Below, one piece after another: positions 42,685 to 60,615 of a stretch of DNA of 64,000 bases. A program made the position numbers and the translations under genes. Source of the stretch: Polaribacter marinus (lineage in GTDB: Bacteria > Bacteroidota > Bacteroidia > Flavobacteriales > Flavobacteriaceae); assembly GCF_022662535.1 (NCBI RefSeq), contig NZ_JAKQYM010000003.1:1-64000 (forward strand), read 5' to 3'. A model generated the notes under the pieces. The model saw only the letters and a list, made by a program, of their open reading frames with translations. It searched no databases and had not been told where the DNA came from. The stretch's first letter is position 1. Each line of letters begins with the position of its first letter.

Positions 42685-43317
42685 ATGAATAATAAATTCG
42701 ATTTAAATTTTGCTTATCTTTTTGAAGAAGAACTGATAAATGAAATTAACGAAATTGGGGTGCTAAAACAATTTAAAGCAGACTCTACAATTATAGAAGT
42801 TGGAGATTATATAAAGTCTATGCCTTTATTAATTTCTGGGGCAATTAAGATTCTTAGAGAAGATGAAAATGGAGAAGAGTTAGTTTTATATTATTTAGAA
42901 AAAGGAGACACATGTGCAATGACTCTTTCTTGTTGCATGGGACAAACCAAAAGTAAGATTAGAGCTGTTGCAGAAACCAATGTAGAGTTGATTATGTTGC
43001 CCAAAGAAAAAATGGCAGAATGGTTAGGGAAATACAAAACTTGGCAAGCTTATATTTTACAAACTTATCATTATAGATTAGATGAACTTTTAGAAGCTTT
43101 AGATACAATTGCTTTTTTAAAAATGGATGAGCGTCTTTTTAAATATCTTAAAGACAAAGCTATGGTTACTCATGATGATCTTTTACATGTTACTCATAAA
43201 GAAATTTCTGAAGACCTACATACTTCTAGAGTTGTGATTTCTAGGTTGTTAAAGAAATTAGAAAATGAAAGTAAAATCAAACTTTTTAGAAATAGTATAA
43301 AAGTTTTAGAACTGTAA
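42685..43317 (+). CDS. Crp/Fnr family transcriptional regulator with Cys-rich sensor domain
   Basis: A 210-residue regulator. The cNMP-binding-type beta-roll (about 20-115) carries Cys77, Cys83 and Cys84 in GDTCAMTLSCCMG, where the effector pocket of CRP would be. It lacks the N-terminal Cys cluster of E. coli FNR. The dimerisation helix is at about 118-145. The winged helix (167-205) has recognition helix SRVVISRLLKKLE. Aligned to FNR, the Ser-Arg pair is kept but the DNA-contacting Glu209 becomes Val, so it should read a different half-site from TTGAT. I chose ATG 42685 over 42646. The gene lies next to five GTAAC-N4-GTTAC sites, one of which overlaps its own stop codon. Confidence 0.88.
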   Translation: MNNKFDLNFAYLFEEELINEINEIGVLKQFKADSTIIEVGDYIKSMPLLISGAIKILREDENGEELVLYYLEKGDTCAMTLSCCMGQTKSKIRAVAETNVELIMLPKEKMAEWLGKYKTWQAYILQTYHYRLDELLEALDTIAFLKMDERLFKYLKDKAMVTHDDLLHVTHKEISEDLHTSRVVISRLLKKLENESKIKLFRNSIKVLEL

Positions 43318-43357
43318 CATTAGTTACTGTTTAATAATAATACAGCCCTTATTTTTG
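43314..43357 (+). promoter_or_regulatory. Crp/Fnr-type site GTAACattaGTTAC with -7 box, cytochrome c promoter
   Basis: The palindrome is at 43314-43327 (centre 43320.5) and TATTTTTG, a full match to TAnnTTTG, is at 43350-43357. The centre is 29.5 bp before the box, which puts the site near -41.5 of the inferred transcription start. The site overlaps the stop codon of the regulator gene. The cytochrome c ATG is at 43371. Confidence 0.75.
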
Positions 43358-43370
43358 TAATAAAAAAAAG

Positions 43371-44327
43371 ATGAAACCCTTTACGTTGTTAATTGTATTT
43401 GTTTTTATGTTTAGTTGTAAAGACTCTCAAAAACCTTCTTATTCTAAAAAGAAGAAAGTTTCTAGCACAATTAAAGAACAAGAACACCCTGGTAAAAAAC
43501 TAATGAAAACAAATTGTTATGTTTGTCATAGCCCATCTACAACAACAGGGAATAGAATTGCTCCTCCGATGATTGCTGTTAAAAATCATTATATCTCAGA
43601 AAACACAACCAAAGAACAGTTTGTAAAATCAATTCAAGATTGGATAAAGAACCCAGCAAAAGAAAAGGCAAAAATGTTTGGAGCTGTAAAACGTTTTGGT
43701 GTGATGCCAAAACAAGTTTTTCCAGAAAAAGTGATCAAAGAAATTTCAGAATATATGTTTGATAATAAAATTGAAACTCCAAAAGGAGTTGAAGATCATT
43801 TTAATAAAAACAATCAAAACCCTCAAGAAGCTAATAATAAGGAATCATATTCTGAAAGAGGTTTAAATTATGCATTAACAACAAAAACGGTTTTAGGAAA
43901 AAACTTAATGGGTAAGATCCAAAAAGAAGGCACTTTGGCTGCGTTAAAGTTTTGCAATGTAAAAGCATATCCCTTAACAGATAGTATGTCGGTTGTACAT
44001 AATGCAAACATTAAAAGAGTTTCAGACAAACCTAGAAATATTAAAAATTTGGCAAATGCTAAAGAACAAGAATACATTGCTATTTTTAAAGAAGATGTTA
44101 AATCAAAAAAAGAATCAGAACCCATTGTTGTAACATCTGCAGAGAATGTAAAATTTTATTATCCAATTAAAACAAATAGTATGTGTTTACAGTGTCATGG
44201 TAAACCAACATCAGACATAAAAGCAGAAACATTTGCAGAAATAAAAAAAATGTATCCTAAGGATTTAGCTACAGGTTACAAAGAGAATCAAGTTAGAGGA
44301 ATTTGGAGTATTACATTTAACAAATAA
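43371..44327 (+). CDS. Lipoprotein fusion of cytochrome c and Tll0287-like (DUF3365) haem domain
   Basis: 318 residues. The lipobox ends at Cys16 (MFSCKD). The first domain is a class I cytochrome c with CYVCH (49-53) and a likely axial Met112 in RFGVMPKQ. The second domain (about 158-318) resembles the Tll0287-like/DUF3365 family and ends with a second haem site, CLQCH (272-276). The protein should be a two-haem, periplasm-facing electron carrier or sensor. It is preceded by a Crp/Fnr-type promoter and followed after 13 bases by thioredoxin. Confidence 0.85.
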   Translation: MKPFTLLIVFVFMFSCKDSQKPSYSKKKKVSSTIKEQEHPGKKLMKTNCYVCHSPSTTTGNRIAPPMIAVKNHYISENTTKEQFVKSIQDWIKNPAKEKAKMFGAVKRFGVMPKQVFPEKVIKEISEYMFDNKIETPKGVEDHFNKNNQNPQEANNKESYSERGLNYALTTKTVLGKNLMGKIQKEGTLAALKFCNVKAYPLTDSMSVVHNANIKRVSDKPRNIKNLANAKEQEYIAIFKEDVKSKKESEPIVVTSAENVKFYYPIKTNSMCLQCHGKPTSDIKAETFAEIKKMYPKDLATGYKENQVRGIWSITFNK

Positions 44328-44340
44328 AAATAATTTTGGC

Positions 44341-44634
44341 ATGAGTAAGTTTTTAGAGATTATTAATCAAGAAAAACCCGTATTAGTAGACTTTTTTGCA
44401 GAATGGTGCGGACCCTGTAAAATGATGAGCCCAGTTTTAAAAGAAGTAAAAGATACTTTAGGAGAAAAGGTGTCTATTATTAAAATAGATGTTGATAAAA
44501 ATCAACCTTTAGCAGCAAAATATCAAGTAAAAGGGGTTCCAACTCTACTGCTTTTTAAGAATGGCAAACAAGTTTGGAGACAATCTGGAGTTGTTCAAAA
44601 AAAAGATTTAGTTTCAATCATTAATAGTTTTTAG
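44341..44634 (+). CDS. trxA: Thioredoxin
   Basis: A 97-residue cytoplasmic thioredoxin with the redox site WCGPC (Cys23, Cys26), the conserved KIDVDKNQPLAAKYQVKGVPT segment split by cis-Pro, and the C-terminal VVQKKDLVSII. It lacks a signal peptide. It lies 13 bases after the cytochrome c gene and before a terminator, so it is predicted to share that gene's promoter. Confidence 0.93.
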   Translation: MSKFLEIINQEKPVLVDFFAEWCGPCKMMSPVLKEVKDTLGEKVSIIKIDVDKNQPLAAKYQVKGVPTLLLFKNGKQVWRQSGVVQKKDLVSIINSF

Positions 44635-44656
44635 TTAGTTTTTTAATAGTAGTTAG

Positions 44657-44688
44657 AAAATCACTTGTTTTTTACAGGTGATTTTTTA
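44657..44688 (+). terminator. Intrinsic terminator after trxA
   Basis: The stem AAATCACTTG / CAGGTGATTT has one G-T pair and a short T-rich loop, with a T tract after it. It separates the cytochrome c-trxA unit from the methyltransferase gene. Confidence 0.8.
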
Positions 44689-44710
44689 TTTAATAAGGAA
44701 AAGTTTAAGG

Positions 44711-45295
44711 ATGAATTTAACAGAAGGTTTTTGGGATAATAAATATAAAAACAATAAAATTGGTTGGGATTTAGGTGAAATTTCTCCACCTTTAAAAACG
44801 TATTTTAACCAATTAAAGAACAAACAAATAAAAATTTTGATCCCTGGTGGAGGTAATTCTTACGAAGCAGAATATCTTTTTAATAAAGGATTTACAAATG
44901 TTTTTGTTGTAGACCTGTCAATAACGGCATTAAATAATATTAAAAAAAGAGTCCCAAGTTTTCCATCATCACAACTTATTCATGCTAATTTTTTTGATTT
45001 GAATATTACTTTTGACTTGGTGATAGAACAAACATTTTTTTGTGCAATTGATCCTGATTTAAGAAAAAATTATGCTTCAAAAATAAAAGATTTATTAATA
45101 GAAAAAGGAAAGTTAGTTGGATTGCTTTTTAACGCAAAACTAAATGAAGATCACCCTCCTTTTGGAGGACATAAAAAAGAATATTTAGAAATTTTTAAAC
45201 CTTATTTCGATATTAAACTAATGGAAGAAGCATACAATTCAATTAAATCTAGACAAGGTTTAGAGTTGTTTTTTCAGGTTCAGAAAAAAGAATGA
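44711..45295 (+). CDS. TPMT-family SAM-dependent methyltransferase
   Basis: About 194 residues of the thiopurine S-methyltransferase family. The N-terminus MNLTEGFWDNKYKNNKIGWDLGE is the family's substrate-side signature, in which a Trp-Asp pair follows the Ile-Gly. The SAM site is LIPGGGNSYEAEYL, and VVDLS follows. A later EQTFFCAIDP block is also conserved. Bacterial members methylate thiols, selenium or tellurium species. The start is ATG 44711; the longer frame begins inside the terminator. Its place between thioredoxin and peroxiredoxin suggests thiol or chalcogen detoxification, which is an inference. Confidence 0.82.
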   Translation: MNLTEGFWDNKYKNNKIGWDLGEISPPLKTYFNQLKNKQIKILIPGGGNSYEAEYLFNKGFTNVFVVDLSITALNNIKKRVPSFPSSQLIHANFFDLNITFDLVIEQTFFCAIDPDLRKNYASKIKDLLIEKGKLVGLLFNAKLNEDHPPFGGHKKEYLEIFKPYFDIKLMEEAYNSIKSRQGLELFFQVQKKE

Positions 45296-45350
45296 AATAA
45301 ATTGTTCCTTATTTATTGCAATTCTTAGTAGACTTTAAAAAAGGTGTTGT

Positions 45351-45394
45351 GTAACAAAAGTTTCAAATAGATTTATTTTATAGCTTTATCTTTA
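45351..45394 (+). promoter_or_regulatory. Crp/Fnr-type site GTAACaaaaGTTTC with -7 box, peroxiredoxin promoter
   Basis: The palindrome with one mismatch is at 45351-45364 (centre 45357.5). TATCTTTA (seven of eight bases when the two free positions count as matches) is at 45387-45394. The spacing is again 29.5 bp. The peroxiredoxin ATG is at 45432. Confidence 0.7.
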
Positions 45395-45431: not shown

Positions 45432-46151
45432 ATGGAAACAACACAACAACAACAAGAAGTTTTTACAATGCCAAGAATTGGTGATAAAGCACCAGAATTT
45501 ACAGCAACAACAACACAAGGTGAAATTAATTTTCCTTCGGATTATAAAGGAGAATGGTCTATTTTATTTAGTCATCCTGCAGATTTTACTCCTGTTTGTA
45601 CATCAGAATTTATGACTTTTGCTCATTTAGAAGAAAAATTTAAAAAAGCAAATTGTAATTTAATTGGTTTGTCAATAGATGGTTTGTATAGCCATATTGC
45701 ATGGTTAAGAACCATTAAAGATAAAATTGAGTTTAATGGAATGAAAAACATAGAAGTTAAGTTTCCTTTAATCGAAGATATTTCTATGAATGTTGCCAAA
45801 AAGTATGGGATGATTCAACCAGGAGAAAGCAAAACACAAGCAGTTAGAGCTGTTTTCTTTGTAGATCCAGAAGAAACAGTTCGTGCTATAATTTATTACC
45901 CTTTAAGTTTAGGACGTAATTTTGATGAGTTATATAGAGCTTTAATAGCGATGCAAACTTCAGATAAATTTAATGTAGCAACTCCAGCAGATTGGAATCC
46001 TGGTGATGATGTTATTGTGTCTCCAGCAGGGTCTTGTGGAGTAGCGGAAGAAAGAATGACTGCTACAGATAATTTAGATTGTAAAGATTGGTTTTTTTGC
46101 ACTAAAAAATTAGATAAAGATTTAGTTTTTAAAGAAATACTTAAAAAATAA
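45432..46151 (+). CDS. Peroxiredoxin (Prx6-like)
   Basis: A 239-residue AhpC/TSA-family peroxidase. The peroxidatic Cys56 is in HPADFTPVCTSEF. The length and the C-terminal extension fit the Prx6/archaeal-type group. Three further cysteines occur at 202 (GSCGVAEER), 217 and 223 (DCKDWFFC), so resolution by one of these, or by thioredoxin, is possible. It reduces H2O2, organic peroxides or peroxynitrite, and related enzymes act on persulfides. It has its own Crp/Fnr-type promoter and a terminator. Confidence 0.9.
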   Translation: METTQQQQEVFTMPRIGDKAPEFTATTTQGEINFPSDYKGEWSILFSHPADFTPVCTSEFMTFAHLEEKFKKANCNLIGLSIDGLYSHIAWLRTIKDKIEFNGMKNIEVKFPLIEDISMNVAKKYGMIQPGESKTQAVRAVFFVDPEETVRAIIYYPLSLGRNFDELYRALIAMQTSDKFNVATPADWNPGDDVIVSPAGSCGVAEERMTATDNLDCKDWFFCTKKLDKDLVFKEILKK

Positions 46152-46169: not shown

Positions 46170-46197
46170 AAAAACCTCAATTAGAGGTTTTTTTTTG
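46170..46197 (+). terminator. Intrinsic terminator after the peroxiredoxin gene
   Basis: AAACCTC (46172-46178) / GAGGTTT (46184-46190) with loop AATTA is followed by a run of T to 46196. The T run touches the regulator site of the cydA promoter. Confidence 0.88.
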
Positions 46198-46240
46198 TAA
46201 TAAATGTTACATTTGAATTATATAGATTTTAGTATTTTTA
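46197..46240 (+). promoter_or_regulatory. Crp/Fnr-type site GTAATaaatGTTAC with -7 box, cydAB promoter
   Basis: The palindrome with one mismatch is at 46197-46210 (centre 46203.5). TATTTTTA (near-match to TAnnTTTG) is at 46233-46240, giving the same 29.5 bp spacing. The cydA ATG is at 46260, about 15 bases after the inferred start of transcription. Confidence 0.72.
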
Positions 46241-46259: not shown

Positions 46260-47594
46260 ATGGAAGATATGCTATTTTATGATAGAATGCAGTTTGCATT
46301 TACAATCACTTTTCATTATTTATTTCCACAATTAACGATGGGGTTATCCTTATTGATCGTTTACTTTAAATGGAAGTTTCTCAGAACAAAAATTGAAAAA
46401 TATAACAATGCTGCAAAATTCTGGATGAAGATTTTTGCACTTAATTTTGCTATGGGAGTGGTAACAGGTATTCCCATGGAGTTTCAGTTTGGTACCAATT
46501 GGGCGAAGTTTTCTGAGCTTACAGGAGGTATTATTGGGCAAACTTTAGCCATGGAAGGTATGTTTTCCTTCTTTTTAGAATCGTCCTTTTTAGGACTCTT
46601 TTTGTTTGGAGAAAAACTCTTAGGTCATAAACTCCATTTTTTAACAGGTTTTCTCGTCTTTTTAGGTTCTTGGGCAAGTGGATATTTAATTATTGCAACT
46701 CATTCTTGGATGCAATATCCTGTAGGGTACGAAATTTTAGAAAATGGAAAATTTGTTCTAAATAATTTTGGAGCATTATTTTCTAACCCTTGGTTATTGC
46801 CTTCTTATCTCCATAATCAAGCAGCTTCTTTAGTTACATCTTCTTTTGTAGTTGCAGGTATTGGAGCTTTTTATCTGTTAAATAATAAGCATCACGAATT
46901 CGGAAAATTATTTATAAAAACAGGAGTTATATTTGGCTTAATTTCTAGTTTATTAGTGGCTTTTCCAACAGGAGATTTAGCTGCTAAAAACGTAGTAAAA
47001 CATCAACCAGCAACTTTTGCAGCGATGGAAGGAATTTTTGAAACTGAAACCGGAGGTTCTGAAATCGTATTGATTGGGCAACCAAACATGTTAGAGAAAA
47101 AATTAGATAATAAAATTGCAGTTCCCAATATTTTAAGCTTTTTAACCTATCAAGATTGGAATGCAGAAATTAAAGGTCTAAATGAATTTGACGAAAGTGT
47201 ACATCCAACCAATGTTCCTGGTTTGTATTATGCTTATCATATTATGGTAGGGTTAGGAACTATTTTTATTGGTTTAATGCTTTTGGCTGCTGTGCAATTA
47301 TTTCGAAGAAAATTATACAAAACAAAATGGATTTTATGGGTATTGATGTTTATGTTGCCATTTCCTTACATTGCCAATACTACAGGTTGGTATACTGCAG
47401 AATTAGGAAGACAACCTTGGTTGGTTTATAATTTATTAAGAACTTCAGAAGGAGCATCACCAACGGTTTCATCAGGAAATACATTATTTACATTATTAGG
47501 CTTTATTGGTTTATATCTGCTTTTAGGAATGTTATTTTTAATGTTAGCAGGAAAAATTATTAACAAAGGTCCAGAACTAGAAAAACACGAATAA
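46260..47594 (+). CDS. cydA: Cytochrome bd ubiquinol oxidase subunit I
   Basis: A 444-residue haem-bearing subunit of the bd-type terminal oxidase. It has about nine membrane helices, the haem b595 ligand His19 (FAFTITFHYLFPQ), the GRQPW motif (ELGRQPWLVYNLLRT) and a His in SYLHNQAASLV equivalent to the haem b558 ligand. The quinol-binding Q-loop is short. bd oxidases work at low O2, lack copper and resist sulfide, cyanide and NO better than haem-copper oxidases. It is followed after three bases by cydB. Confidence 0.95.
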   Translation: MEDMLFYDRMQFAFTITFHYLFPQLTMGLSLLIVYFKWKFLRTKIEKYNNAAKFWMKIFALNFAMGVVTGIPMEFQFGTNWAKFSELTGGIIGQTLAMEGMFSFFLESSFLGLFLFGEKLLGHKLHFLTGFLVFLGSWASGYLIIATHSWMQYPVGYEILENGKFVLNNFGALFSNPWLLPSYLHNQAASLVTSSFVVAGIGAFYLLNNKHHEFGKLFIKTGVIFGLISSLLVAFPTGDLAAKNVVKHQPATFAAMEGIFETETGGSEIVLIGQPNMLEKKLDNKIAVPNILSFLTYQDWNAEIKGLNEFDESVHPTNVPGLYYAYHIMVGLGTIFIGLMLLAAVQLFRRKLYKTKWILWVLMFMLPFPYIANTTGWYTAELGRQPWLVYNLLRTSEGASPTVSSGNTLFTLLGFIGLYLLLGMLFLMLAGKIINKGPELEKHE

Positions 47595-47597: not shown

Positions 47598-48674
47598 ATG
47601 GAATTATTTTGGTATATCGTTTTAATGACCATGTTAGCTATTTATGTAATTTTAGATGGTTATGATTTTGGTGCAGGAATTATTCATTTATTTTTTGCGA
47701 AAACTGAAAAAGATAAAAAGGCAATTACCAATGCTATTGGCCCTTTTTGGGATGCCAATGAAGTTTGGTTAATTGCTGCTGGAGGTGTATTGTTTTTTGC
47801 ATTTCCAACCTTATACGCATCCTCTTTTAGTGGGTTTTATTTGCCCTTAATAATGATTTTATGGTTGCTAATTTTTAGAGCTATTGGGTTGGAACTCCGT
47901 GGGCAAATTCAGAATAAAATGTGGGAAAGCATTTGGGATAAAGCATTTGGGATTTCTAGTTTTTTACTTGCTCTCTTCTTCGGAGTTGCTTTAGGAAACG
48001 TTGTTAGAGGTGTAAACCTAGGGAATGTGGTTGAAGGCGTATCTACGCATGAAGCACATTATTTCTTTTTGCCACTTTGGAATCCAACGTTTAGTCCACA
48101 AGCGGAACAATTGGGTATTTTAGATTGGTTTACCGTTTTATTAGGTATAATTGGAGTTGTAGCTTTAACGATTCATGGTGCCAATTGGATTATTTTTAAA
48201 ACAAATTCAGACATTAATGAAAAATTAAAAAAGGTTGTTTTTAATCTCAATTTTGTGCTGTTAGGTTTGGTAATTATTTCTCTTTTAGTTTGGCATATCA
48301 TAGAACCAAAACCATTTCATAACTTTTTAGATAAACCTTGGCTGTTTATTTTTCCAATCATCACTTTTACGGGGTTATTTGGGTTATTCAAAGTAAGGTC
48401 GTTTCAACAACATGGTAAAGGATTTTTGTTTAGTTCTTTGTTTTTGTTAGGTGGATTGACATCTACAGTGGCCTCAATTTTTCCAAAAGTATTGCCCTCA
48501 ACCAATAATATCAATCCAGATTTGACTTTATATAATGTTGCTGCAGATGAATATGGACTTTCAATTGGTGTTTATTGGTTTGCAATTGCAGTAGTTTTAG
48601 TTGCTGTTTATATGGTAATTCAATATAGGGTGTTTAAAGGAAAAATGGATGATGTTGGCTACGGAGAGCATTAG
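47598..48674 (+). CDS. cydB: Cytochrome bd ubiquinol oxidase subunit II
   Basis: A 358-residue integral membrane subunit with family blocks YVILDGYDFGAGI, GPFWDANEVWLIAAGG and LHGAN-like HGANWIIFKT. It is the obligate partner of CydA. The cydCD exporter genes are not in the window, and no CydX-like peptide of about 35 residues is recognisable. A 98-residue membrane protein lies 20 bases downstream. Confidence 0.95.
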   Translation: MELFWYIVLMTMLAIYVILDGYDFGAGIIHLFFAKTEKDKKAITNAIGPFWDANEVWLIAAGGVLFFAFPTLYASSFSGFYLPLIMILWLLIFRAIGLELRGQIQNKMWESIWDKAFGISSFLLALFFGVALGNVVRGVNLGNVVEGVSTHEAHYFFLPLWNPTFSPQAEQLGILDWFTVLLGIIGVVALTIHGANWIIFKTNSDINEKLKKVVFNLNFVLLGLVIISLLVWHIIEPKPFHNFLDKPWLFIFPIITFTGLFGLFKVRSFQQHGKGFLFSSLFLLGGLTSTVASIFPKVLPSTNNINPDLTLYNVAADEYGLSIGVYWFAIAVVLVAVYMVIQYRVFKGKMDDVGYGEH

Positions 48675-49058: not shown

Positions 49059-49073
49059 ACTATTTAGTTGGTG

Positions 49074-49685
49074 ATGAAAAAAAAGAAAGACGAAAATACA
49101 GAAGTTCAAATATTAGAAGCTGCAAAACGCATTTTTCAAACCAAAGGTATGGATGGTGCGCGCATGCAAGAAATTGCAAATGAAGCCGGGATTAACAAAG
49201 CGATGCTTCATTATTATTATAGAAGTAAACAATTGCTTTTTGAGGCAGTTTTTAAAAATGCGTTTTCATTATTGGCTCCTCAGTTAAATACAATTTTAAA
49301 CGATGATTCATCGATAGAAGAAAAGATAAGAAAATTTTCATCAAACTATATTTCGTTTATTGAGAAGCATCCTTATTTGCCAAATTTTATTATTCAAGAA
49401 TTGAATAGAAACCCAGGTTTTATATTTAAAATGGAAGAAAATAAAAGTTTTCCAAATCTTGAAAAGTTTAAAAAGCAAGTAGATGATGAAGTAGATAAAG
49501 GTTTTATAAAAAAGATAAGCGCGCCACAATTATTTATCAACATCATGTCGTTAAATGTATTTCCTTTTGTTGCTAAACCCTTATTACAAAATTTAATTAA
49601 AGTAAGCGATGAGGAATATCAAAAGATAGTAGAAGAACGTAAAACAGAAGTAGCCAATTTTATAATCAATTCAATAAAAATATAA
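49074..49685 (+). CDS. TetR/AcrR family transcriptional regulator
   Basis: About 203 residues. The N-terminal helix-turn-helix has ILEAAKRIFQTKGMDGARMQEIANEAGI and KAMLHYYYRSKQLLF. The C-terminal ligand-binding domain is unassigned. I start at ATG 49074; GTG and TTG codons precede it. It heads the TolC/HlyD/ABC export operon, and the palindrome over its promoter suggests that it represses itself and the pump. The arrangement parallels cecR (ybiH)-ybhGFSR of E. coli. Confidence 0.9.
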   Translation: MKKKKDENTEVQILEAAKRIFQTKGMDGARMQEIANEAGINKAMLHYYYRSKQLLFEAVFKNAFSLLAPQLNTILNDDSSIEEKIRKFSSNYISFIEKHPYLPNFIIQELNRNPGFIFKMEENKSFPNLEKFKKQVDDEVDKGFIKKISAPQLFINIMSLNVFPFVAKPLLQNLIKVSDEEYQKIVEERKTEVANFIINSIKI

Positions 49686-49686
49686 G

Positions 49687-50940
49687 ATGAAAAAAATAGG
49701 ATTCATTTTAATACTAACATTTGTGAGTCTTGGTGTATTTGCCCAAGAAGTTTTAACATTAAAAGAGTGTTATAATTTGTTAGAAACTAATTATCCTTTG
49801 GTAAAACAACATCAGTTGTTAGAAAATCAAAACCAAATAGATAACAGCATCATTACAAATTCAAAATTACCACAAATTAGTTTAGATGCACAAGCAACAT
49901 ACCAGTCTGAAGTAATGGAATTTCCTGTGGCAATGTCTAGTATAACGCCTTTAAACAAAGATCAATATCGTGCAACTGTTTCTATAAATCAATTAATTTT
50001 TAACGGAGGTGCAACTACTGCGAATTTAAAAGTAAAAACAGCCGAATTAAAAACAAAAAAGAAAAGTATTGAAACCAATATTTATCAATTAAAAATGCAA
50101 ATTAATCAATTGTATTTTTCAATTTTATTAACGCAAGAAACGTTTAAATTATTAGAAGTTAAAAAAAATCAATTAAAGACAAAATTAAAAGAAGTAAAAT
50201 CGGGTATAAAACATGGAGTTTTACTACCTGCTTCAGACAGTGTTTTAGAAGCAGAATTGTTGAAAATTAACCAACAATTTATAGAGGTTGAGAATAGGAA
50301 ATTATCTTTAATAGAAACTCTTTTTAGTTTCATTGGTCAACCTTTTGATTCTGATGTAAAATTAGAAATCCCCTTAATTACAACGCGGTTAGACACAGAG
50401 ATTACAAGACCAGAATTAGATTTGTTTCAACTTAAAAAAGAAGAAATTACAGCACAAGAAGCTTTCGTTTCTAAACAAAATTCTGTAAAACTAAATGGTT
50501 TTTTTACGGGCGGATATGGAAATCCTGGGTTAAATATGCTCGATAATTCATTTCATTCATTTTATACTGTTGGGGTTAAATTACATTGGAATGTATTTGA
50601 TTGGAACACCAACAAAAAACAACAACAGTCATTAGCAATTCATAAAGATGTCATAGAAAATGAAACCGAAGTTTTTAAGTTAAACACCACCATCGCTTTA
50701 AATAAGCAACAAAAGGAAATAGAGAAGGTTTCGGCTTTTATCAATTCCGATCAAGAGATTATACGTCTTCGTAAAAAGGTATTAAAAACCTTAGACGCAC
50801 AACTTAAAAACGGAGTAATAACATCGTCAGTTTATATTACTGAATTCACCAATTTATTTGAAGCAGAAAACATCTTGTTACAGCATAAAATTCAAGCACA
50901 ATTAGCAAAGGAAAATTATAATATAATAAAAGGACAATAA
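49687..50940 (+). CDS. TolC family outer-membrane channel (ABC exporter)
   Basis: 417 residues. The signal peptide ends near GVFAQE, followed by LTLKECYNLLETNYPLVKQHQ and long coiled-coil repeats. The second half has VGVKLHWNVFDWNTNKKQQQ and LKNGVITSSVYITEFTNLFEAENILLQ. It starts one base after the TetR stop codon and supplies the outer-membrane exit for the ABC exporter. Confidence 0.9.
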   Translation: MKKIGFILILTFVSLGVFAQEVLTLKECYNLLETNYPLVKQHQLLENQNQIDNSIITNSKLPQISLDAQATYQSEVMEFPVAMSSITPLNKDQYRATVSINQLIFNGGATTANLKVKTAELKTKKKSIETNIYQLKMQINQLYFSILLTQETFKLLEVKKNQLKTKLKEVKSGIKHGVLLPASDSVLEAELLKINQQFIEVENRKLSLIETLFSFIGQPFDSDVKLEIPLITTRLDTEITRPELDLFQLKKEEITAQEAFVSKQNSVKLNGFFTGGYGNPGLNMLDNSFHSFYTVGVKLHWNVFDWNTNKKQQQSLAIHKDVIENETEVFKLNTTIALNKQQKEIEKVSAFINSDQEIIRLRKKVLKTLDAQLKNGVITSSVYITEFTNLFEAENILLQHKIQAQLAKENYNIIKGQ

Positions 50941-50951
50941 ATATTTTAAAA

Positions 50952-51845
50952 ATGAAAAATCACCAATACATATTAGGAATAAGCATCATGATTTTTAGTT
51001 TGTTTTCCTGTGGAAAAGATAATGGAAGAGCAGATGGTTATGGGAATTTTGAAGCAACAGAAATCACTATTTCAGCAGAAAATAATGGAAAACTAATTCA
51101 GTTTAATGTGGAAGAAGGAGATGTGCTTAAAAAAAATCAATTTGTGGGTTTTATAGATACTTTGCAATTAGCTTTAAAGAAAGAACAATTGTTGGTTTCT
51201 AAAGAAATTATTAGCTCAAAATCTAAAGGTGTTTTATCTCAGATTTCAGTATTAAAGTCAAAATTGAAAACGGCTACAATCAATAAAAATAGAATTGTAA
51301 GTTTAATTAAAGATAAGGCAGGTACTCAAAAACAATTAGATGACATTTCTGGTGAAATAGATATAATTAAAAGTCAGATTAGAAGTGTAGAAATACAAAA
51401 TGCACCTGTGGTTAACGAATTAAAAGCGATAGATGTTCAATTAAAACAAATTGATGATCAAATTCAAAAAAGTAAAATTATCAATCCTGTAAATGGAACC
51501 GTTTTAACTAAATATGCAGAGCCAAATGAAATTACTGCTTTTGGAAAACCACTTTATAAAATTGCCGATTTAAGTACCCTACAATTGCGTGTTTATATTA
51601 GTGAAACGCAATTGTCAAAAATTAAAATTGGTGAAAAAGTAACCGTTAAAATTGATGCTTCAGAAGAGATGAAATCTTTTGAAGGAATTGTAAGTTGGAT
51701 TGCTTCAGAAGCAGAATTTACACCTAAAATTATTCAAACAAAAGAAGAACGTGTGGCTTTAGTATACGCAGTAAAAGTGAATGTAAAAAATGATGGAAGT
51801 TTAAAAATTGGCATGCCAGCAGAAATGTGGTTAACTCAAAAATAA
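50952..51845 (+). CDS. HlyD family periplasmic adaptor (lipoprotein)
   Basis: 297 residues with a lipobox ending FSCGKD (Cys20). The barrel-sandwich halves are GYGNFEATEITISAENNGKL and INPVNGTVLTKYAEPNEI, flanking a coiled coil. The beta-barrel segment is LSKIKIGEKVTVKID. It corresponds to YbhG. The stop codon is followed directly by the first ATPase gene. Confidence 0.88.
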   Translation: MKNHQYILGISIMIFSLFSCGKDNGRADGYGNFEATEITISAENNGKLIQFNVEEGDVLKKNQFVGFIDTLQLALKKEQLLVSKEIISSKSKGVLSQISVLKSKLKTATINKNRIVSLIKDKAGTQKQLDDISGEIDIIKSQIRSVEIQNAPVVNELKAIDVQLKQIDDQIQKSKIINPVNGTVLTKYAEPNEITAFGKPLYKIADLSTLQLRVYISETQLSKIKIGEKVTVKIDASEEMKSFEGIVSWIASEAEFTPKIIQTKEERVALVYAVKVNVKNDGSLKIGMPAEMWLTQK

Positions 51846-52748
51846 ATGAGCATTATAATTTCTAATATATCAAAATCGTACAAAAAAGTAAATGCATTAA
51901 AAAACATTTCTTTTGATGTAAAATCGGGAGAGCTTTTTGGTTTAATAGGTCCTGATGGAGCAGGAAAAACCACCCTTTTTAGAATTTTAACTACCCTTTT
52001 AATTGCCAATGAAGGCTCAGCAAAGGTTGCCGATTTTGATGTCGTTTCAGAGTATAAAAGTATTCGAAAAAGTGTAGGCTATATGCCTGGAAAATTTTCT
52101 TTATATCAAGATTTAACGGTTGAAGAAAATTTAGAGTTTTTCGCCACTATTTTTGGAACGACTATAGATGAAAATTACGATTTAATTAAAGATATTTATG
52201 TTCAAATAGAGCCATTTAAAAACAGAAGAGCAGGGAAATTGTCTGGAGGAATGAAACAAAAGCTTGCGCTATGTTGTGCATTAATACACAAACCCAAAGT
52301 ATTGTTTTTAGACGAGCCAACTACTGGAGTTGATCCTGTTTCTCGAAAAGAATTTTGGGAAATGCTAAAAAGATTGCAGCAAAAAGGCATTACTATTTTG
52401 GTTTCTACACCGTATATGGATGAAGCTGCTTTGTGCGATAGAATTGCCTTAATTCAAGATGGAGAAATCTTAGAGATTGATACACCTCAAGCTATTGTAA
52501 AGCATTATCCTAAACAGATTTATAACGTAAAAGCAAATAAAATGTATCAACTCATAAATGCTTTAAATGATTATAAGTACAATCATAGTGTGTATCCTTT
52601 TGGAGAGTTTGTACATTATACAGACAGTAGAATGGATTTTAATTCGAAAGATTTAGAAGTCTATTTAGAATCTAAAAATTTATCATCTATAGAAATTGAA
52701 GAAACGAAACCAACCATTGAAGATACCTTTATGGAATTAGCAAAATAA
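51846..52748 (+). CDS. ABC transporter ATP-binding protein (first of two)
   Basis: A 300-residue ATPase with Walker A GPDGAGKTTLF, signature LSGGMKQKLAL, Walker B VLFLDEPTTGVDP and a C-terminal ~70-residue extension. In E. coli YbhF two ATPase domains are fused. Here this ORF matches the first half and a separate gene the second. It starts on the base after the adaptor stop codon. Confidence 0.92.
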   Translation: MSIIISNISKSYKKVNALKNISFDVKSGELFGLIGPDGAGKTTLFRILTTLLIANEGSAKVADFDVVSEYKSIRKSVGYMPGKFSLYQDLTVEENLEFFATIFGTTIDENYDLIKDIYVQIEPFKNRRAGKLSGGMKQKLALCCALIHKPKVLFLDEPTTGVDPVSRKEFWEMLKRLQQKGITILVSTPYMDEAALCDRIALIQDGEILEIDTPQAIVKHYPKQIYNVKANKMYQLINALNDYKYNHSVYPFGEFVHYTDSRMDFNSKDLEVYLESKNLSSIEIEETKPTIEDTFMELAK

Positions 52749-52819
52749 ATGTCTGTTAGAGTGTGGTGAAACACAAATAAGTAATCTCTACTGCACTTAA
52801 TGAGATAAAAACAAACTAA

Positions 52820-53548
52820 ATGAATAATAACAATGTCATCGAAGTTCAAAACTTAACCAAAATGTTTGGCGATTTTACAGCAGTAAATGCCATTTCTTTT
52901 GAAGTTGAAAAAGGAGAAATATTTGGTTTTCTAGGAGCCAATGGTGCAGGAAAAACAACAGCAATGAAAATGCTAATTGGGATTTCTAATCCAACTTCAG
53001 GAAAAGCGAACGTTGCAGGATTAGATGTATATAAGCAAGCCGAAGATATTAAAAAAAACATTGGTTATATGAGTCAGAAATTTGCTTTGTATGACGATTT
53101 AACGGTGAAAGAAAACATTACATTCTTTGGTGGAATTTATGGTTTATCTAGAAAACGAATAAAAGAAAAATCGGCAACTTTAATAGAAGAATTAGGTTTA
53201 GAAAGTGTTGCTAAGAAATTGGTAGGTTCATTACCATTGGGATGGAAACAAAAATTATCTTTTTCGGTGTCTTTACTTCATGATCCTAAAATTGTGTTTT
53301 TAGATGAACCTACGGGAGGCGTAGATCCAATTACTCGACGTCAGTTTTGGGAGTTAATTTATAAAGCAGCGCATCAAGGAACAACTGTTTTTGTAACTAC
53401 GCATTATATGGATGAAGCAGAATATTGTGATCGTGTTTCTATTATGGTAAACGGAAAAATTGAAGCTTTAGATACTCCAAAAAAGCTTAAGCAACAATTT
53501 AATGTTACAAATATGAATGATGTGTTTTTAAAATTAGCTAGAGGATGA
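52820..53548 (+). CDS. ABC transporter ATP-binding protein (second of two)
   Basis: A 242-residue ATPase with Walker A GANGAGKTTAMK and Walker B IVFLDEPTGGVDP. The signature is degenerate (LPLGWKQKLSF rather than LSGGQ), a substitution also seen in the second half of YbhF-type proteins. An asymmetric heterodimer with the first ATPase is likely. It is separated from it by 71 bases of low-complexity sequence. Confidence 0.92.
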   Translation: MNNNNVIEVQNLTKMFGDFTAVNAISFEVEKGEIFGFLGANGAGKTTAMKMLIGISNPTSGKANVAGLDVYKQAEDIKKNIGYMSQKFALYDDLTVKENITFFGGIYGLSRKRIKEKSATLIEELGLESVAKKLVGSLPLGWKQKLSFSVSLLHDPKIVFLDEPTGGVDPITRRQFWELIYKAAHQGTTVFVTTHYMDEAEYCDRVSIMVNGKIEALDTPKKLKQQFNVTNMNDVFLKLARG

Positions 53549-53637
53549 GAAATAGTATTCAATCTCAGTAATTAGAAAAAAAACTCAACGAATTTCAGTG
53601 AGTTCTCTTTGAATCTCAGTGTAATAATTTAAAGGAA

Positions 53638-54744
53638 ATGAAAAGATTTATAGGCTTTATAAAAAAAGAATTCTATCATATTTTTAGAGATAGACGCTCG
53701 TTGTTTATCTTATTTGGGATGCCAATTGCTCAAATTATGCTATTTGGGTTTGCTATTACCAATGAAATTAATAATATAGATATTGCTGTTTTAGATCATT
53801 CCAAAGATGCAACAACAGAAGAAATTATCCATAAAATTTCAGCTTCAAAATACTTCAGCATCAATCAATTTATTAACAAAGAGTCTGATATTGAATCTGT
53901 TTTTAAGAAAGGAAAGGTAAAAGCTGTTTTAAATTTTGAGAAAGATTTTAGTAAAAACTTAATTAAAAATCACAAAGCAAACCTGCAAATTATCACAGAT
54001 GCTACAGATCCAAATACAGCAAATACGATAAGTAATTATGTCAATGCGATTTTAATACAATATCAAAAAGAATTGAACAAAAACATTAGTATTCCTTATC
54101 AAATTGTACCGCAAACAAGAATGGTTTATAACCCCGAATTAAAAAGTGTATACATGTTTGTTCCAGGTGTAATGACTATTATTTTAATGTTAGTTTCTGC
54201 AATGATGACTTCTATTTCTATTACAAAAGAAAAAGAATTAGGAACCATGGAAATTCTTTTAGTATCTCCAATAAAACCCATTCAGGTAATTGTGGGTAAA
54301 GTATTTCCATACATATTTTTATCTGTAATTAATGCTGTTGTTATTGTTTTGCTAAGTATCTTTATTTTTAAGATGCCCGTTCAAGGAAGTTTGTTTTTAT
54401 TAGGTTTAGAAAGCATTCTTTTTATAATTAGTGCTTTGGCTTTAGGTATTTTAATTTCTACCATTTCAGCAACACAACAAACAGCCATGATGATTTCATT
54501 AATGGGACTTATGCTTCCTGTAATTCTATTATCGGGTTTTATTTTTCCAATATCAAGCATGCCACTACCATTGCAAGTGATTAGTAATATTATACCAGCA
54601 AAATGGTTTATCATCATTATAAAAGGGATTATGCTAAAAGGTGTAGGGCTGCAATATATCTGGAAAGAAACTTTTATTTTATTAGGAATGACTATCTTTT
54701 TTATTGCATTAAGTGTAAAGAAATATAAAATTAGATTAGAGTAA
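53638..54744 (+). CDS. ABC-2 type transporter permease (YbhS/YbhR-like, first)
   Basis: 368 residues. One N-terminal membrane helix (FGMPIAQIMLFGFAI) is followed by an extracytoplasmic domain, then five helices. The family block is KELGTMEILLVSPIKPIQVIVGKVFPY. It forms the membrane channel with the second permease. 89 bases of CAGT-rich intergenic sequence precede it. Confidence 0.9.
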   Translation: MKRFIGFIKKEFYHIFRDRRSLFILFGMPIAQIMLFGFAITNEINNIDIAVLDHSKDATTEEIIHKISASKYFSINQFINKESDIESVFKKGKVKAVLNFEKDFSKNLIKNHKANLQIITDATDPNTANTISNYVNAILIQYQKELNKNISIPYQIVPQTRMVYNPELKSVYMFVPGVMTIILMLVSAMMTSISITKEKELGTMEILLVSPIKPIQVIVGKVFPYIFLSVINAVVIVLLSIFIFKMPVQGSLFLLGLESILFIISALALGILISTISATQQTAMMISLMGLMLPVILLSGFIFPISSMPLPLQVISNIIPAKWFIIIIKGIMLKGVGLQYIWKETFILLGMTIFFIALSVKKYKIRLE

Positions 54745-54891
54745 ACAGTTTGCAGGCTCAGTAAAGAGTAGCAGTATTCAGTTAAATACAAAAATAAAAT
54801 TTAGATAATAAATCATAGTGGTTAGAGAAAATATTAGACGATACTAGAATGTCTTTATTCTTTGCTCTATTCTCTTTATTCTTTTAAATAT

Positions 54892-56013
54892 ATGAAAACA
54901 ATACTATACATCATACAAAAAGAATTTAAGCAAATCTTTAGAAATAAAGGCATGCTTCCTATCATTTTTGTGTTGCCATTATTACAGCTAGTAATTTTAT
55001 CAAATGCGGCTACTTTTGAAGTAAAAAATATCAAATTTGGTTATATTGATAACGATCATACATCAACATCTCGTGACTTGGTCGAAAAATTTAATGCATC
55101 TACTTATTTTAATGTTTTAACCAATTTTTCTTCAGAAGCATTGGCAAGTGCTGCAATGTTAAATGGAGAAGTAGATGTTGTTTTGCAAATTCCGCAGTAT
55201 TTTGAAAGAGATTTACAAAAAGAAAAGCACAATAGTTTAGGAGTTAGTATTAATGCTATAGATGGCGCAGCAGCAGGTGTAGAAAATGTATATGTTACAC
55301 AAATTGTACAAGGTTTTAATCAAAATATAAAAGTAGATGTTTTACAAGTTTCTGATAAACAAATGCAAGCTATTCGTATAGAAACGATTCCTTTGTTTTG
55401 GTATAACAAAACCTTAAATTATAAAACATTTATGGTTCCAGGGATATTGGTTTTGTTGGTTACAATGATTACTTTGTTTCTGTCGGGAATGAATATCGTT
55501 AGAGAAAAAGAAATCGGAACCTTAGAGCAAATTAACGTAACACCAATTAAAAAGAGTCAGTTTATTATCGGAAAACTCTTTCCCTTTTGGCTAATAGGTA
55601 TGGGTTTATTAACTGTTGGTTTACTCTTAGCAAAACTCATATTTAATGTTCCTATGATTGGTAGTTTACCATTAATGTATTTCTATACTTCCATTTATAT
55701 TTTGGTGATCTTAGGCATTGGTTTATTTATTTCTAATTTTACAGATACCCAGCAACAAGCCATGTTTATCGCTTGGTTTTTTACTGTTATTTTTATTTTA
55801 ATGAGTGGTTTATTTACGCCCATTGAAAGTATGCCAAAATGGGCGCAAACCATTACAGAATTTAATCCAATAAAATATTTTGTGCAAGTAATGCGTATGG
55901 TGATGTTAAAAGGTTCTGACATTAATGACATTCTTCCACAGTTGTTAAAAACAGCATTTTATGCTTTTATAATGAACGGTTTAGCCGTGTGGAGTTACAA
56001 GAAAACAAATTAA
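54892..56013 (+). CDS. ABC-2 type transporter permease (second)
   Basis: About 373 residues with the same architecture as the preceding permease: N-terminal helix LPIIFVLPLLQLVILSN, an extracytoplasmic domain, then REKEIGTLEQINVTPIKKSQFIIGKLFPF and five helices. The start is ATG 54892 (MKTILYIIQKEFKQIF). It ends ten bases before the Crp/Fnr-type site of the next gene. 147 bases separate it from the first permease gene, an unusually loose spacing for this operon. Confidence 0.9.
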   Translation: MKTILYIIQKEFKQIFRNKGMLPIIFVLPLLQLVILSNAATFEVKNIKFGYIDNDHTSTSRDLVEKFNASTYFNVLTNFSSEALASAAMLNGEVDVVLQIPQYFERDLQKEKHNSLGVSINAIDGAAAGVENVYVTQIVQGFNQNIKVDVLQVSDKQMQAIRIETIPLFWYNKTLNYKTFMVPGILVLLVTMITLFLSGMNIVREKEIGTLEQINVTPIKKSQFIIGKLFPFWLIGMGLLTVGLLLAKLIFNVPMIGSLPLMYFYTSIYILVILGIGLFISNFTDTQQQAMFIAWFFTVIFILMSGLFTPIESMPKWAQTITEFNPIKYFVQVMRMVMLKGSDINDILPQLLKTAFYAFIMNGLAVWSYKKTN

Positions 56014-56022
56014 AAAATTTGT

Positions 56023-56066
56023 GTAACAAAAGTTACTGTATAGCTCTTACAAAATAACAACCTTTA
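56023..56066 (+). promoter_or_regulatory. Crp/Fnr-type site GTAACaaaaGTTAC with weak -7 box, SQR-like gene promoter
   Basis: A perfect palindrome is at 56023-56036 (centre 56029.5). AACCTTTA, a weak match to TAnnTTTG (four of the six fixed or near-fixed bases), is at 56059-56066, exactly at the 29.5 bp spacing seen at the other sites. The inferred 5' leader to the ATG at 56166 is about 95 bases. Confidence 0.68.
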
Positions 56067-56165: not shown

Positions 56166-57623
56166 ATGTCTAAAATTGTCATTTTAGGGGCTGGAATTTC
56201 TGGCCATGTAGCAGCCACACATTTACGTAGAAAATTGTCAAAAAAACACGAAGTTGTTGTTGTTTCACCTAACAGTAATTATCAGTGGATTCCATCTAAT
56301 ATTTGGGTTGGAATAGGAAGAATGAAATCCGAAAAAATATTGTTTCCATTAGCTCCTTTATATAAAAGAAAAGGAATTCAATTTAAGCAAGCAAAAGCAA
56401 TTTCATTTTTTCCTGAAGGAGATAAAACGGAAGAGAAACCTTACGTTTTATCAGAATATGTTGTTGGAGAAAATAAAGGGAGTCAAGAAAAAGTAACTTA
56501 CGATTATCTGATTAATGCAACGGGTCCGAAGTTAAATTTTGAGGCAACAGAAGGTTTAATTCCTGGTAAAAATAAAGCTTATTCTGTATGTACTTATACG
56601 CATGCAGATCATGCCTGGGAAGGTTTGCGTAAAGTTATTGAAGAAATGAAAGCTGGTAAGAAAGCGAAAATTTTAATCGGTACCGGGCATGCAAAGTCAA
56701 CTTGTCAAGGCGCTGCTTTTGAGTATATTTTAAATGTAGAGAAAGAATTACGCAGACATAATGTACGAGATATGGCTGAGGTTACTTGGATTTCTAATGA
56801 ATATCAATTAGGCGATTTTGGAATGGATGGAATGTTGTTGAGTTATGGAAGCTTGACGATGAAATCTCATGAAATGATTGAAATGATTTTTGAAGATAGA
56901 GATATTAAGTGGATACTTGGAGCTGGAGTTAATAAGATAGAAGATGGTGTTGCGCATTATGAAAATTTAGAAGGAGAACAAAAGTCAGAAACCTATGATT
57001 TTGCTATGTTAATTCCATCATTTTCTGGTCATGGGTTTAAGGCTTATGATAAAAATGAAAATGATATCACAGGAAAACTCTTTAAAGGTTTTATGATTGT
57101 AGATGCAGATTATACATCAAAACCATACGAAGAATGGTCTGTTAAAGATTGGCCAGAGACGTATCAGAATCCAAATTATAAAAATATTTTTGCACCAGGA
57201 ATTGCATTTGCACCTCCACACGCTATTTCTAAACCTAGAAAAAGTAAAAACGGAACCGATATTTGTCCTGCTCCTCCACGTACAGGAATGCCATCGGGTA
57301 TTACGGCAAAAATTGTTGCAGATAATATTATAGACTCTATAAAAAACGGAAAAGAAACTTTAAATCATAAAGGAAGTTTAGGAAATATGGGAGCTGCTTG
57401 TATTGCTTCTGCTGGTTTTGGAATGACAACAGGTAGTGGTGTAAGTATTACAACGTATCCTATTGTTCCTGATTATGAAAAATATCCAAAAACACAAGGA
57501 AGACAGTTAGGGAAAACCTTTGGAGATATTGGTTTAGCAGGACATTGGTTAAAATTAGCATTACACTATGCTTTTATTTATAAGGCAAAAATGAAACCAT
57601 TTTGGTGGTTGATTCCAGAATAG
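56166..57623 (+). CDS. Sulfide:quinone oxidoreductase-like FAD-dependent oxidoreductase
   Basis: 485 residues of the NAD(P)/FAD-dependent disulfide-reductase superfamily. The FAD Rossmann motif is GAGISG (8-13), a second nucleotide-type segment is LIGTGHAKSTCQGAA, and the NIFAPGIAF FAD loop is present. Cysteines 142, 180, 367 and 412 are candidates for the redox pair; 180 and 367 are placed much as in sulfide:quinone oxidoreductases. The C-terminal amphipathic region (HWLKLALHYAFIYKAKMKPFWWLIPE) suits membrane association. I call it SQR-like; flavocytochrome c sulfide dehydrogenase-type or other quinone reductases are possible. The last codons form the first unit of a 33-bp tandem repeat. Confidence 0.82.
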   Translation: MSKIVILGAGISGHVAATHLRRKLSKKHEVVVVSPNSNYQWIPSNIWVGIGRMKSEKILFPLAPLYKRKGIQFKQAKAISFFPEGDKTEEKPYVLSEYVVGENKGSQEKVTYDYLINATGPKLNFEATEGLIPGKNKAYSVCTYTHADHAWEGLRKVIEEMKAGKKAKILIGTGHAKSTCQGAAFEYILNVEKELRRHNVRDMAEVTWISNEYQLGDFGMDGMLLSYGSLTMKSHEMIEMIFEDRDIKWILGAGVNKIEDGVAHYENLEGEQKSETYDFAMLIPSFSGHGFKAYDKNENDITGKLFKGFMIVDADYTSKPYEEWSVKDWPETYQNPNYKNIFAPGIAFAPPHAISKPRKSKNGTDICPAPPRTGMPSGITAKIVADNIIDSIKNGKETLNHKGSLGNMGAACIASAGFGMTTGSGVSITTYPIVPDYEKYPKTQGRQLGKTFGDIGLAGHWLKLALHYAFIYKAKMKPFWWLIPE

Positions 57624-57899: not shown

Positions 57900-57934
57900 T
57901 GTGGTTGTCAGTTTTTAGTTGGTTTTTTTAATAG

Positions 57935-57967
57935 AAAAAGGGCATTAATTTTTTTAATGCCCTTTTT
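57935..57967. terminator. Bidirectional intrinsic terminator
   Basis: AAAAAGGGCATTAA and TTAATGCCCTTTTT pair over 14 bases around a T-rich loop. It lies between the SQR-like transcript and the convergent TonB-receptor gene. Confidence 0.92.
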
Positions 57968-57971
57968 CTTA

Positions 57972-60056: not shown

Positions 60057-60128
60057 TTCTATTAAGTTTAAATTTTGTAATAAAATATTATTTATAGCAA
60101 ACAAAATGCTATAAAACGAAATTTAAAA

Positions 60129-60503
60129 TTATCCTTTAGGTGGATGAAAACAGTTGTTTGTTATATGATAAGTATATAGATTTAAATAAGAAGAATATGG
60201 TTTTTTAAAATCTTTAATTTTGTTAAATGTATAAGATAAAGGCACATTGTTGTATAATAGTATGTCTTTAAGATCTATAAGTTGTATTGGTGGGTTTTCA
60301 TTGTTGTTACTAGAGTTTGTTATTTTTTTTAAATGACATTTACCATTACAAGCTAATTCTGGCTTGTCTTTGTTTTCGCAAAAAGCTTCTATAAAACCTT
60401 TTGTATCTAAATTAAAATAAGCATATACAATAGACACCCTTAAAGTATTGTATAAAACTAGAGCGCTTAAAGTAATAGCAAAAATAATTTTCCAGTTTTT
60501 CAC
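60129..60503 (-). CDS. Small membrane protein with C-x9-CNGKC motif
   Basis: 124 residues starting at GTG 60503. An N-terminal membrane helix (IIFAITLSALVLYNTLRVSIVYAYF) precedes a cysteine motif CENKDKPELACNGKCHLKK. A polar region follows, and the end is NNCFHPPKG. The closely spaced cysteines and the neighbouring OprC-like receptor suggest metal binding, perhaps copper. I know of no named family. It is upstream of the receptor on the same strand, so the two are likely co-transcribed from the shared divergent promoter region. Confidence 0.75.
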   Translation of the reverse strand: MKNWKIIFAITLSALVLYNTLRVSIVYAYFNLDTKGFIEAFCENKDKPELACNGKCHLKKITNSSNNNENPPIQLIDLKDILLYNNVPLSYTFNKIKDFKKPYSSYLNLYTYHITNNCFHPPKG

Positions 60504-60541
60504 AATTTCACAATTAAAAATATTTAATGTTTAATTCTTGA

Positions 60542-60615
60542 TAAAGGTCATTTAATATTTTATATTAGAGAGTAACAAATGTTACAGACAGAGGTCCTGT
60601 CAGGCCTTAATTTTG
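60542..60615. promoter_or_regulatory. Bidirectional Crp/Fnr-type site GTAACaaatGTTAC with boxes on both sides
   Basis: A perfect palindrome at 60572-60585 (centre 60578.5). On the plus strand TAATTTTG, a full match to TAnnTTTG, is at 60608-60615, spaced 29.5 bp. On the minus strand GACCTTTA (60549 to 60542) lies at the same distance. The site could therefore activate both the TolC-HlyD-RND operon and the CNGKC/copper-receptor pair. Confidence 0.72.

Follow-up and report, generated by a model that had tools for sequence, protein, structure and literature searches.

Which regulator acts on a set of identically spaced palindromes in the genome of Polaribacter marinus, and in answer to what signal? 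The 64,000-nucleotide stretch analysed here (contig NZ_JAKQYM010000003.1, positions 1 to 64,000; hereafter the window) holds a gene for a Crp/Fnr-family protein and, from its stop codon onward, five GTAAC-N4-GTTAC palindromes, each followed by a TAnnTTTG-like promoter box (Table 1). The sequence-only reading had taken them for a local regulon of the Crp/Fnr gene with class II activator geometry. When re-read in the window, all five palindromes had the sequences and coordinates first given, and the distance from palindrome centre to first box base was 29.5 bp in every case, leaving a gap of exactly 22 bp (5/5). The final base of the box is G in two cases and A in three, and the box at 56059 lacks the leading T. 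We defined the composite as the GTAAC-N4-GTTAC palindrome followed after 22 bp by TANNTTTR, with the reversed pattern as control. A scan of the whole genome (3.39 Mb) with at most one mismatch found the composite at these five places and nowhere else, the 60572 site being additionally read as a composite on the opposite strand; with up to three mismatches the scan gave noise (133 matches vs 212 for the control). Perfect palindromes, no box being required, occur six times in the genome, and three of them are among the five. Palindromes with at most one mismatch number 10 in the window vs 1.53 expected (largest of 100 shuffles, 6), and none of the other five forms a composite within one mismatch. 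The term local holds for this genome, where the sites are confined to 17 kb, but not for the regulon itself, which is family-wide: judged from sequence, the five sites form a genuine regulon, which exemplifies a wider one that Flavobacteriaceae share and whose class II layout is fixed.

This extension rests on a sample of 149 genomes from 148 genera of the family, in which the composite gave 614 matches vs 117 for the reversed control, with at least one match in 123 genomes; a regulator match at 1e-20 was present in 126. Close orthologues were taken at a best E value of 1e-55 or better, a threshold chosen after viewing the list. The 116 genomes with such an orthologue hold 599 composite sites vs 97 control matches, 113 of them having sites, whereas the other 33 genomes total 15 vs 20, made up of 10 genomes with a distant relative only (6 vs 8) and 23 without the regulator gene (9 vs 12). 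The same was observed in the genus (40 genomes), with 159 sites vs 17 in the 31 genomes that have the regulator and 7 vs 7 in the nine that lack it. Furthermore, 21 of these 31 resemble the window in having a listed site no more than 25 bp from the regulator 3′ end. It is very improbable that some other factor uses the palindromes, or that they arose by chance or as part of coding sequence. Coding-like matches seen by eye in the genus and the 97 control matches in 116 genomes would fit that view, but the counts drop to control level without the regulator, the sites sit at its 3′ end in the genus, and they covary with its recognition helix (see below). The conservation expected upstream of orthologues was also found. 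In loci of relatives, mostly Polaribacter, with at most one mismatch allowed in the palindrome and two overall, the cytochrome c/Tll0287 gene is preceded by a site in 11/12 loci (L354-L365; G, C and L numbers are our handles for genomes, contigs and loci) and in a Crocinitomicaceae bin (L366). Within the same limits no site was seen ahead of this gene in L361, L367 and L368. Other sites in these loci lie upstream of peroxiredoxin, SQR-like, CydA and, once, OEP genes, the CydA being of a type only 36-40% identical to that of the window. Co-occurrence in the family and genus, the 3′-end sites and the helix covariation support the control by the Crp/Fnr gene that had been proposed, and the five palindromes are likely operators of this adjacent regulator.

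Some regulator loci show other arrangements. A composite site stands immediately upstream of the regulator gene in L129 (10823, minus strand), which suggests autoregulation, and same-strand sites lie about 0.4 kb upstream of it at G234:C2:432570 and G187:C10:58053. One genus member (G400:C3:191235-192430) carries seven composite copies, each with one mismatch, in about 1.2 kb at about 300 bp from the regulator gene, five of the seven being spaced by about 215 bp. In the window, a perfect palindrome that is not of the GTAAC type, TGTGAATTCACA, occupies the intergenic positions 42566-42577 ahead of the regulator gene; a different regulator may use it.

The regulator combines a cNMP-binding fold with a Crp HTH, by Pfam and by its structure model, which places it in the Crp/Fnr superfamily. 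The AlphaFold model has a normal Crp fold (mean pLDDT 86.4; lowest blocks residues 1-10, 67, and 81-90, 68), and the best Foldseek matches are CRP-family structures of the generic CRP/NtcA type; the names CRP and NtcA offered by NCBIfam were rejected as far below cut-off. The start at ATG 42685 agrees with homologue lengths of mostly 209-213 aa (an in-frame ATG lies upstream at 42646), and the closest homologues, many named Polaribacter, reach 90% identity. We aligned 82 sequences, namely the window protein and 81 of 85 relatives, two shortened frames and two close copies being excluded. In the recognition helix, R182 and R187 are present in 82/82, and position 183, the counterpart of CRP Glu181, has Val in 56 proteins and Glu in the other 26; Val183 was confirmed in all 46 distinct family regulator sequences (L067-L136). 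Three genes of the P. marinus genome carry PF13545, and the SRxxxSR helix is found in this regulator only, the other two differing. Sites for the covariation analysis were GT[AG]AC-N4-GT[TC]AC with an exact TANNTTTR box. The halves are GTAAC/GTTAC in 70/78 sites at Val183 loci (40 family regions) and in 0/13 in a genus with Glu183 (12 genomes), which has GTAAC-N4-GTCAC twelve times and GTGAC-N4-GTTAC once; nine of these 13 precede the same kind of PDO-like gene. The association is strong (Fisher 1e-10), the 13 Glu sites being non-independent as they come from one genus. Glu183 regulators outside the family (15 loci, two of which are actually Val, ARVV) yielded a single case of an exact GTGAC palindrome with an exact box at +22, and because of this the covariation rests on a single genus with shared site ancestry. 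That the GTAAC or GTGAC half-site tracks Val or Glu at position 183 is thus supported by sequence comparison, and a residue/half-site link was proposed earlier for HcpR and its relatives (PMC1274295, in excerpt).

The same source describes the closest known operator. HcpR2 of Clostridium, Bacteroides and Thermotogales, also a Crp/Fnr-family protein, has the consensus GTAACnnnnGTTAC, its specificity being explained by loss of the Glu at CRP position 181 (PMC1274295, in excerpt); this was the only paper found with that string in the open-licence literature. The regulator could then be an HcpR2-type protein that recognizes the same motif, senses nitric oxide through bound haem and controls nitrosative-defence genes, and the HcpR of P. 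gingivalis does bind haem and nitric oxide, according to a source known in excerpt. We consider this distinctly unlikely. For hcp (PF03063), the core target of HcpR2, the P. marinus genome gave no match and the 149 family genomes one short fragment. The residue at CRP position 181 is Pro in most HcpR2 species (PMC1274295, in excerpt) but Val or Glu in 82/82 here. The sulfur-handling targets speak against it as well. The regulator thus differs from HcpR2 in its Val, the lack of hcp, its predicted sulfide/persulfide targets and the fixed distance to the Bacteroidota box: on these sequence comparisons the operator is shared with HcpR2, and residue and targets are not.

The promoter geometry was evaluated on 95 perfect palindromes gathered, with no box demanded, from 40 regulator regions of 39 genomes (G143 twice), a non-random set mostly from the top of the match list. 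Downstream of these palindromes on both strands, TANNTTTG occurs at +22 in 43 cases vs 9 for the 59 other offsets combined. TANNTTTR with at most one mismatch lies at +22 on one side of 86/95. Among perfect 5-N4-5 palindromes with an exact box 22 bp away, the half-sites are GTAAC (43), ATGAC (4), GTGAC (3) and three others (1 each). The four ATGAC-N4-GTCAT cases at 22 bp from TANNTTTG (L097-L136) suggest another Crp/Fnr protein with the same promoter layout. In the start-site map of Flavobacterium psychrophilum, TAnnTTTG extends from -12 to -5 (PMC9723704, in excerpt). Because of this mapping, the palindromes would cover -48 to -35 with their centre at -41.5, which bears out the class II geometry first suggested, the box position being borrowed from the F. 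psychrophilum start sites. In a logo built from 201 sites, the stretch between palindrome and box lacks any strong block and shows only a weak G preference right after the palindrome. The GTTAC half would lie where the -33 element usually is, which would leave the promoters weak in the absence of the protein, and the regulator dimer would touch the polymerase in the manner of a class II activator.

The first genes downstream of the sites were collected to approach the signal. The set comprises 199 genes, 103 near regulators and 96 from listed genome-wide matches; the longest qualifying frame was taken for each site, and 17/218 composite sites without an open frame of 60 aa starting within 160 bp were excluded. 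From the window and the neighbourhoods, 103/105 frames were used, the two dropped being a truncated frame and an additional start of one gene; the genome-wide match listing covers part of the 149 genomes, its 80 regions being 80 of about 85 listed extra sites. Counts refer to the 25 commonest Pfam families per set and are given as near-regulator plus genome-wide targets. The commonest domains are rhodanese (48/199; 27 + 21), metallo-beta-lactamase (36/199; 19 + 17), TauE (31/199; 23 + 8) and sulphur transport of the YeeE/YedE type (13/199; 6 + 7). They are followed by pyridine nucleotide-disulphide oxidoreductase, SQR-like (12 + 5), OEP (8 + 9), DUF983 (2 + 9) and cytochrome bd (2 + 2), with AhpC-type domains in five near-regulator targets and molybdopterin oxidoreductase and YgaP-type membrane domains in three genome-wide targets each. 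Rhodanese domains are rare genome-wide, with 8 domain matches in the 3.39 Mb of P. marinus. Proteins of about 470 aa with metallo-beta-lactamase and rhodanese domains are labelled persulfide-dioxygenase-like (PDO-like) here, after their domain make-up.

Taken alone, the targets in the window (SQR-like, cydAB, peroxiredoxin, thioredoxin, copper-receptor-like) are ambiguous as to signal. In E. coli, FNR class II promoters carry a 5-N4-5 palindrome centred at -41.5, the FNR operator is TTGAT-N4-ATCAA, and an N-terminal Cys cluster of FNR holds a [4Fe-4S] centre. The position of the palindrome is the same here, but the half-sites are GTAAC, the N-terminal Cys cluster is absent and a Bacteroidota sigma-A box replaces the -10 element. 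A regulator with an FNR- or ArcA-like role, answering to low oxygen or to the overall redox state and switching on bd oxidase, cytochrome c and thiol enzymes, would account for this FNR-like class II geometry and for the cydAB, cytochrome c, thioredoxin and peroxiredoxin genes in the window. It is nevertheless an unlikely one, since the commonest family-wide target domains are rhodanese, metallo-beta-lactamase and TauE. Because no Cys precedes residue 77, there is no FNR-type iron-sulfur site and the regulator is not an oxygen-sensing FNR.

Since the family-wide targets are sulfur-handling genes, the signal is probably sulfide or persulfide. By site position, the set expected of a persulfide sensor (SQR, PDO, TauE, YeeE) is found across the family; within P. 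marinus a site precedes the SQR-like gene and not the PDO-like one. Acinetobacter baumannii answers sulfide with parts of similar type: it induces SQR, PDO and TauE genes, the sulfide-refractory cydAB and the outer-membrane copper transporter OprC, and it has a secondary operon, yeeE-yedE-pdo2 (PMC7315123, in excerpt). When NaHS was added to sediment of the Bohai Sea, Bacteroidota were among the phyla whose sqr and pdo transcripts increased (PMC12345210, in excerpt). FisR, BigR/SqrR and CstR likewise control SQR, PDO, TauE or YeeE/YedE genes, BigR by Cys-based sensing (PMC7315123, in excerpt). They differ in kind, FisR being a sigma-54 activator and BigR and CstR repressors, whereas the regulator studied here is a Crp/Fnr protein and a predicted activator. 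No Crp/Fnr sulfide regulator of Flavobacteria appeared among the open-licence literature matches listed.

The regulator has only three Cys in its translation, C77, C83 and C84. The trio is invariant in the 46 family sequences; in the 82-protein alignment C77 is found in 82/82, C83 in 73/82 (hence the C77 and C83 pair in 73/82) and C84 in 57/82. In CRP, the cAMP pocket residues are Glu72 and Arg82. They are not retained here, the Glu aligning with M79 (Glu in 0/82) and the Arg with K89 (Lys in 50/82, Arg in 7/82). The best sequence match among solved structures, EUBREC_1222 of Eubacterium rectale (Crp/Fnr, PDB 3dv8; 129.5 bits with alignment), has Cys at the C77 and C83 positions and none at 84. 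From these comparisons, Cys chemistry as the sensor is weakly supported. In the Glu183 genus (L294-L305, g128), Cys84 is replaced by Ala or Thr.

The reading that we regard as probable is that the regulator is a Crp/Fnr activator which, on a rise of reactive sulfur, would bind the palindrome at -41.5 and recruit RNA polymerase to the TANNTTTR promoters of sulfide-defence genes. The sequence comparisons give strong support to operator, geometry and regulator, and moderate support to the sulfide or persulfide signal. In the least certain step, Cys77 (with Cys83/Cys84 in most Flavobacteriaceae), at the place of the CRP cAMP site, would react with persulfide to give the DNA-binding form. The SQR-like enzyme, with thioredoxin and peroxiredoxin, would then clear sulfide and persulfides, the sulfide-resistant cytochrome bd would sustain respiration, and the copper-receptor-like and efflux pair would tune metal supply. 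Evenly balanced, in our judgement, is the wider proposal that the protein represents a new class of sensor for reactive sulfur. In this proposal Cys77, as a rule together with Cys83/Cys84, would take over from the chemistry of the cyclic-nucleotide pocket in a Crp/Fnr activator, which would govern the sulfide/persulfide regulon in most Flavobacteriaceae; its site, fixed at -41.5, would stand in for the -33 element, and Val or Glu in the recognition helix would set the half-site to GTAAC or GTGAC.

Several observations weigh against this reading. In 9/82 proteins C83 and C84 are both replaced and C77 alone is left, and two of the nine have a site before a TauE-type gene; because of these two, the Cys pair cannot be the general sensor. 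One regulator without C83 and C84 (G119, L226) goes with three composite sites, and of six Val-helix relatives outside the family that carry CGG, two have a site before a gene that looks, by eye, TauE-type or YgaP-like. The distant family relatives in G010, G059 and G077, genomes with 0 or 1 composite match, keep C77, with Glu183 and no C83/C84; since these genomes are poor in sites, Cys77 alone is no marker of function. The bd oxidase, peroxiredoxin, thioredoxin and cytochrome c of the window would equally suit low oxygen, and the SQR-like assignment is far under the curated cut-off (56.8 vs 525 bits). For the PDO-like and rhodanese genes of P. marinus (C33:226-230 kb), palindromes with up to one mismatch are absent, and none with up to two is followed by a box at +22; because of this, the regulon of this species would be reduced to the window and would lack the gene most characteristic of persulfide handling. 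Roughly one in six composite matches in the orthologue genomes (about 16%, 97/599) would be due to chance, and some in the genus resemble, by eye, conserved coding sequence. Outside the family the composite is weak. A sample of 247 genomes of the phylum has a regulator match at 1e-30 in 88 and the composite in 86; the 27 family genomes among them hold 99 sites vs 27 control, but the rest of the class gave 49 vs 32 (31 genomes), the rest of the order 0 vs 3 (3 genomes) and the remaining 186 genomes 44 vs 76. A phylum-wide regulon with the GTAAC operator finds no support in the counts for the class outside the family and beyond, and on this evidence the GTAAC composite is a trait of the family, at most weakly visible in the class.

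The features of the window are compiled in Table 1. At palindrome 5, box-like sequences stand at +22 on both strands (60542-60615), as in a possible operator shared by divergent promoters. A divergent promoter at 60572 was rejected, as boxes on both sides occur in 1/95 palindromes and two relatives show no clear conservation. Amid the regulated genes, positions 49068-56013 hold an efflux cluster (TetR regulator, OEP, HlyD, ABC ATPases and ABC-2 type permeases) with no composite site upstream. Elsewhere in the genome, a 10-kb stretch (G000:C33:222001-232000; L369, about 4024-7610) carries, by eye, consecutive SulP-like, PDO-like and rhodanese genes behind apparent oxidase genes, and the whole stretch is free of palindromes combined with a box.

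Table 1. Coordinates of the regulator, palindromes, promoter boxes and genes in the window.
Feature	Position	Strand	Remark
Crp/Fnr-family regulator, 210 aa	42685..43317	+	Pfam cNMP_binding 48.1 bits, HTH_Crp_2 29.9 bits
Cys77-Cys84 stretch (Cys77, Cys83, Cys84)	42913..42936	+	Aligns with CRP phosphate-binding cassette; short helix 81-85 in model
Recognition-helix segment S181-R-V-V-I-S-R187	43225..43245	+	V183 at place of CRP E181
Palindrome 1 GTAACATTAGTTAC	43314..43327	+	Overlaps regulator stop codon
Promoter box TATTTTTG	43350..43357	+	22 bp past palindrome 1
Cytochrome c + Tll0287-like haem protein	43371..44327	+	Pfam; site kept upstream in relatives
Thioredoxin	44341..44634	+	TIGR01068 above cut-off
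Thiopurine S-methyltransferase-like protein	44678..45295	+	Pfam TPMT 88 bits
Palindrome 2 GTAACAAAAGTTTC	45351..45364	+	
Promoter box TATCTTTA	45387..45394	+	
Peroxiredoxin	45432..46151	+	NF009668 325 bits, cut-off 211
Palindrome 3 GTAATAAATGTTAC	46197..46210	+	
Promoter box TATTTTTA	46233..46240	+	
Cytochrome bd oxidase subunit I (CydA)	46260..47594	+	Pfam 492 bits
Cytochrome bd oxidase subunit II (CydB)	47598..48674	+	Pfam 268 bits
Palindrome 4 GTAACAAAAGTTAC	56023..56036	+	
Promoter box AACCTTTA, weak	56059..56066	+	
Sulfide:quinone reductase (SQR)-like flavoprotein	56166..57623	+	Best NCBIfam model SQR type III, 56.8 bits
TonB-dependent receptor, nearest copper-receptor model TIGR01778	57972..60104	-	266 bits, below cut-off 472
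124-aa protein	60129..60503	-	Open frame; separates receptor gene from palindrome 5
Candidate leftward box GACCTTTA	60542..60549	-	1 mismatch, 22 bp from palindrome 5
Palindrome 5 GTAACAAATGTTAC	60572..60585	+	Flanked by divergent genes
Promoter box TAATTTTG, rightward	60608..60615	+	
TolC-like outer-membrane efflux protein	60635..61942	+	Pfam OEP 158.9 bits
HlyD/CusB-type membrane fusion protein	61998..63080	+	Pfam

To our knowledge, few regulons of the Flavobacteriaceae, which are major marine heterotrophs, have a known signal. What the present analysis adds is an operator with its promoter geometry, a regulator and a list of targets, so that it can be tested directly how sulfide and persulfide oxidation is controlled in this family. 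It indicates where an activator would sit on the Bacteroidota TAnnTTTG promoter, a system without classical -35/-10 boxes. If the proposed signal is true, the Crp/Fnr superfamily would gain a reactive-sulfur branch.

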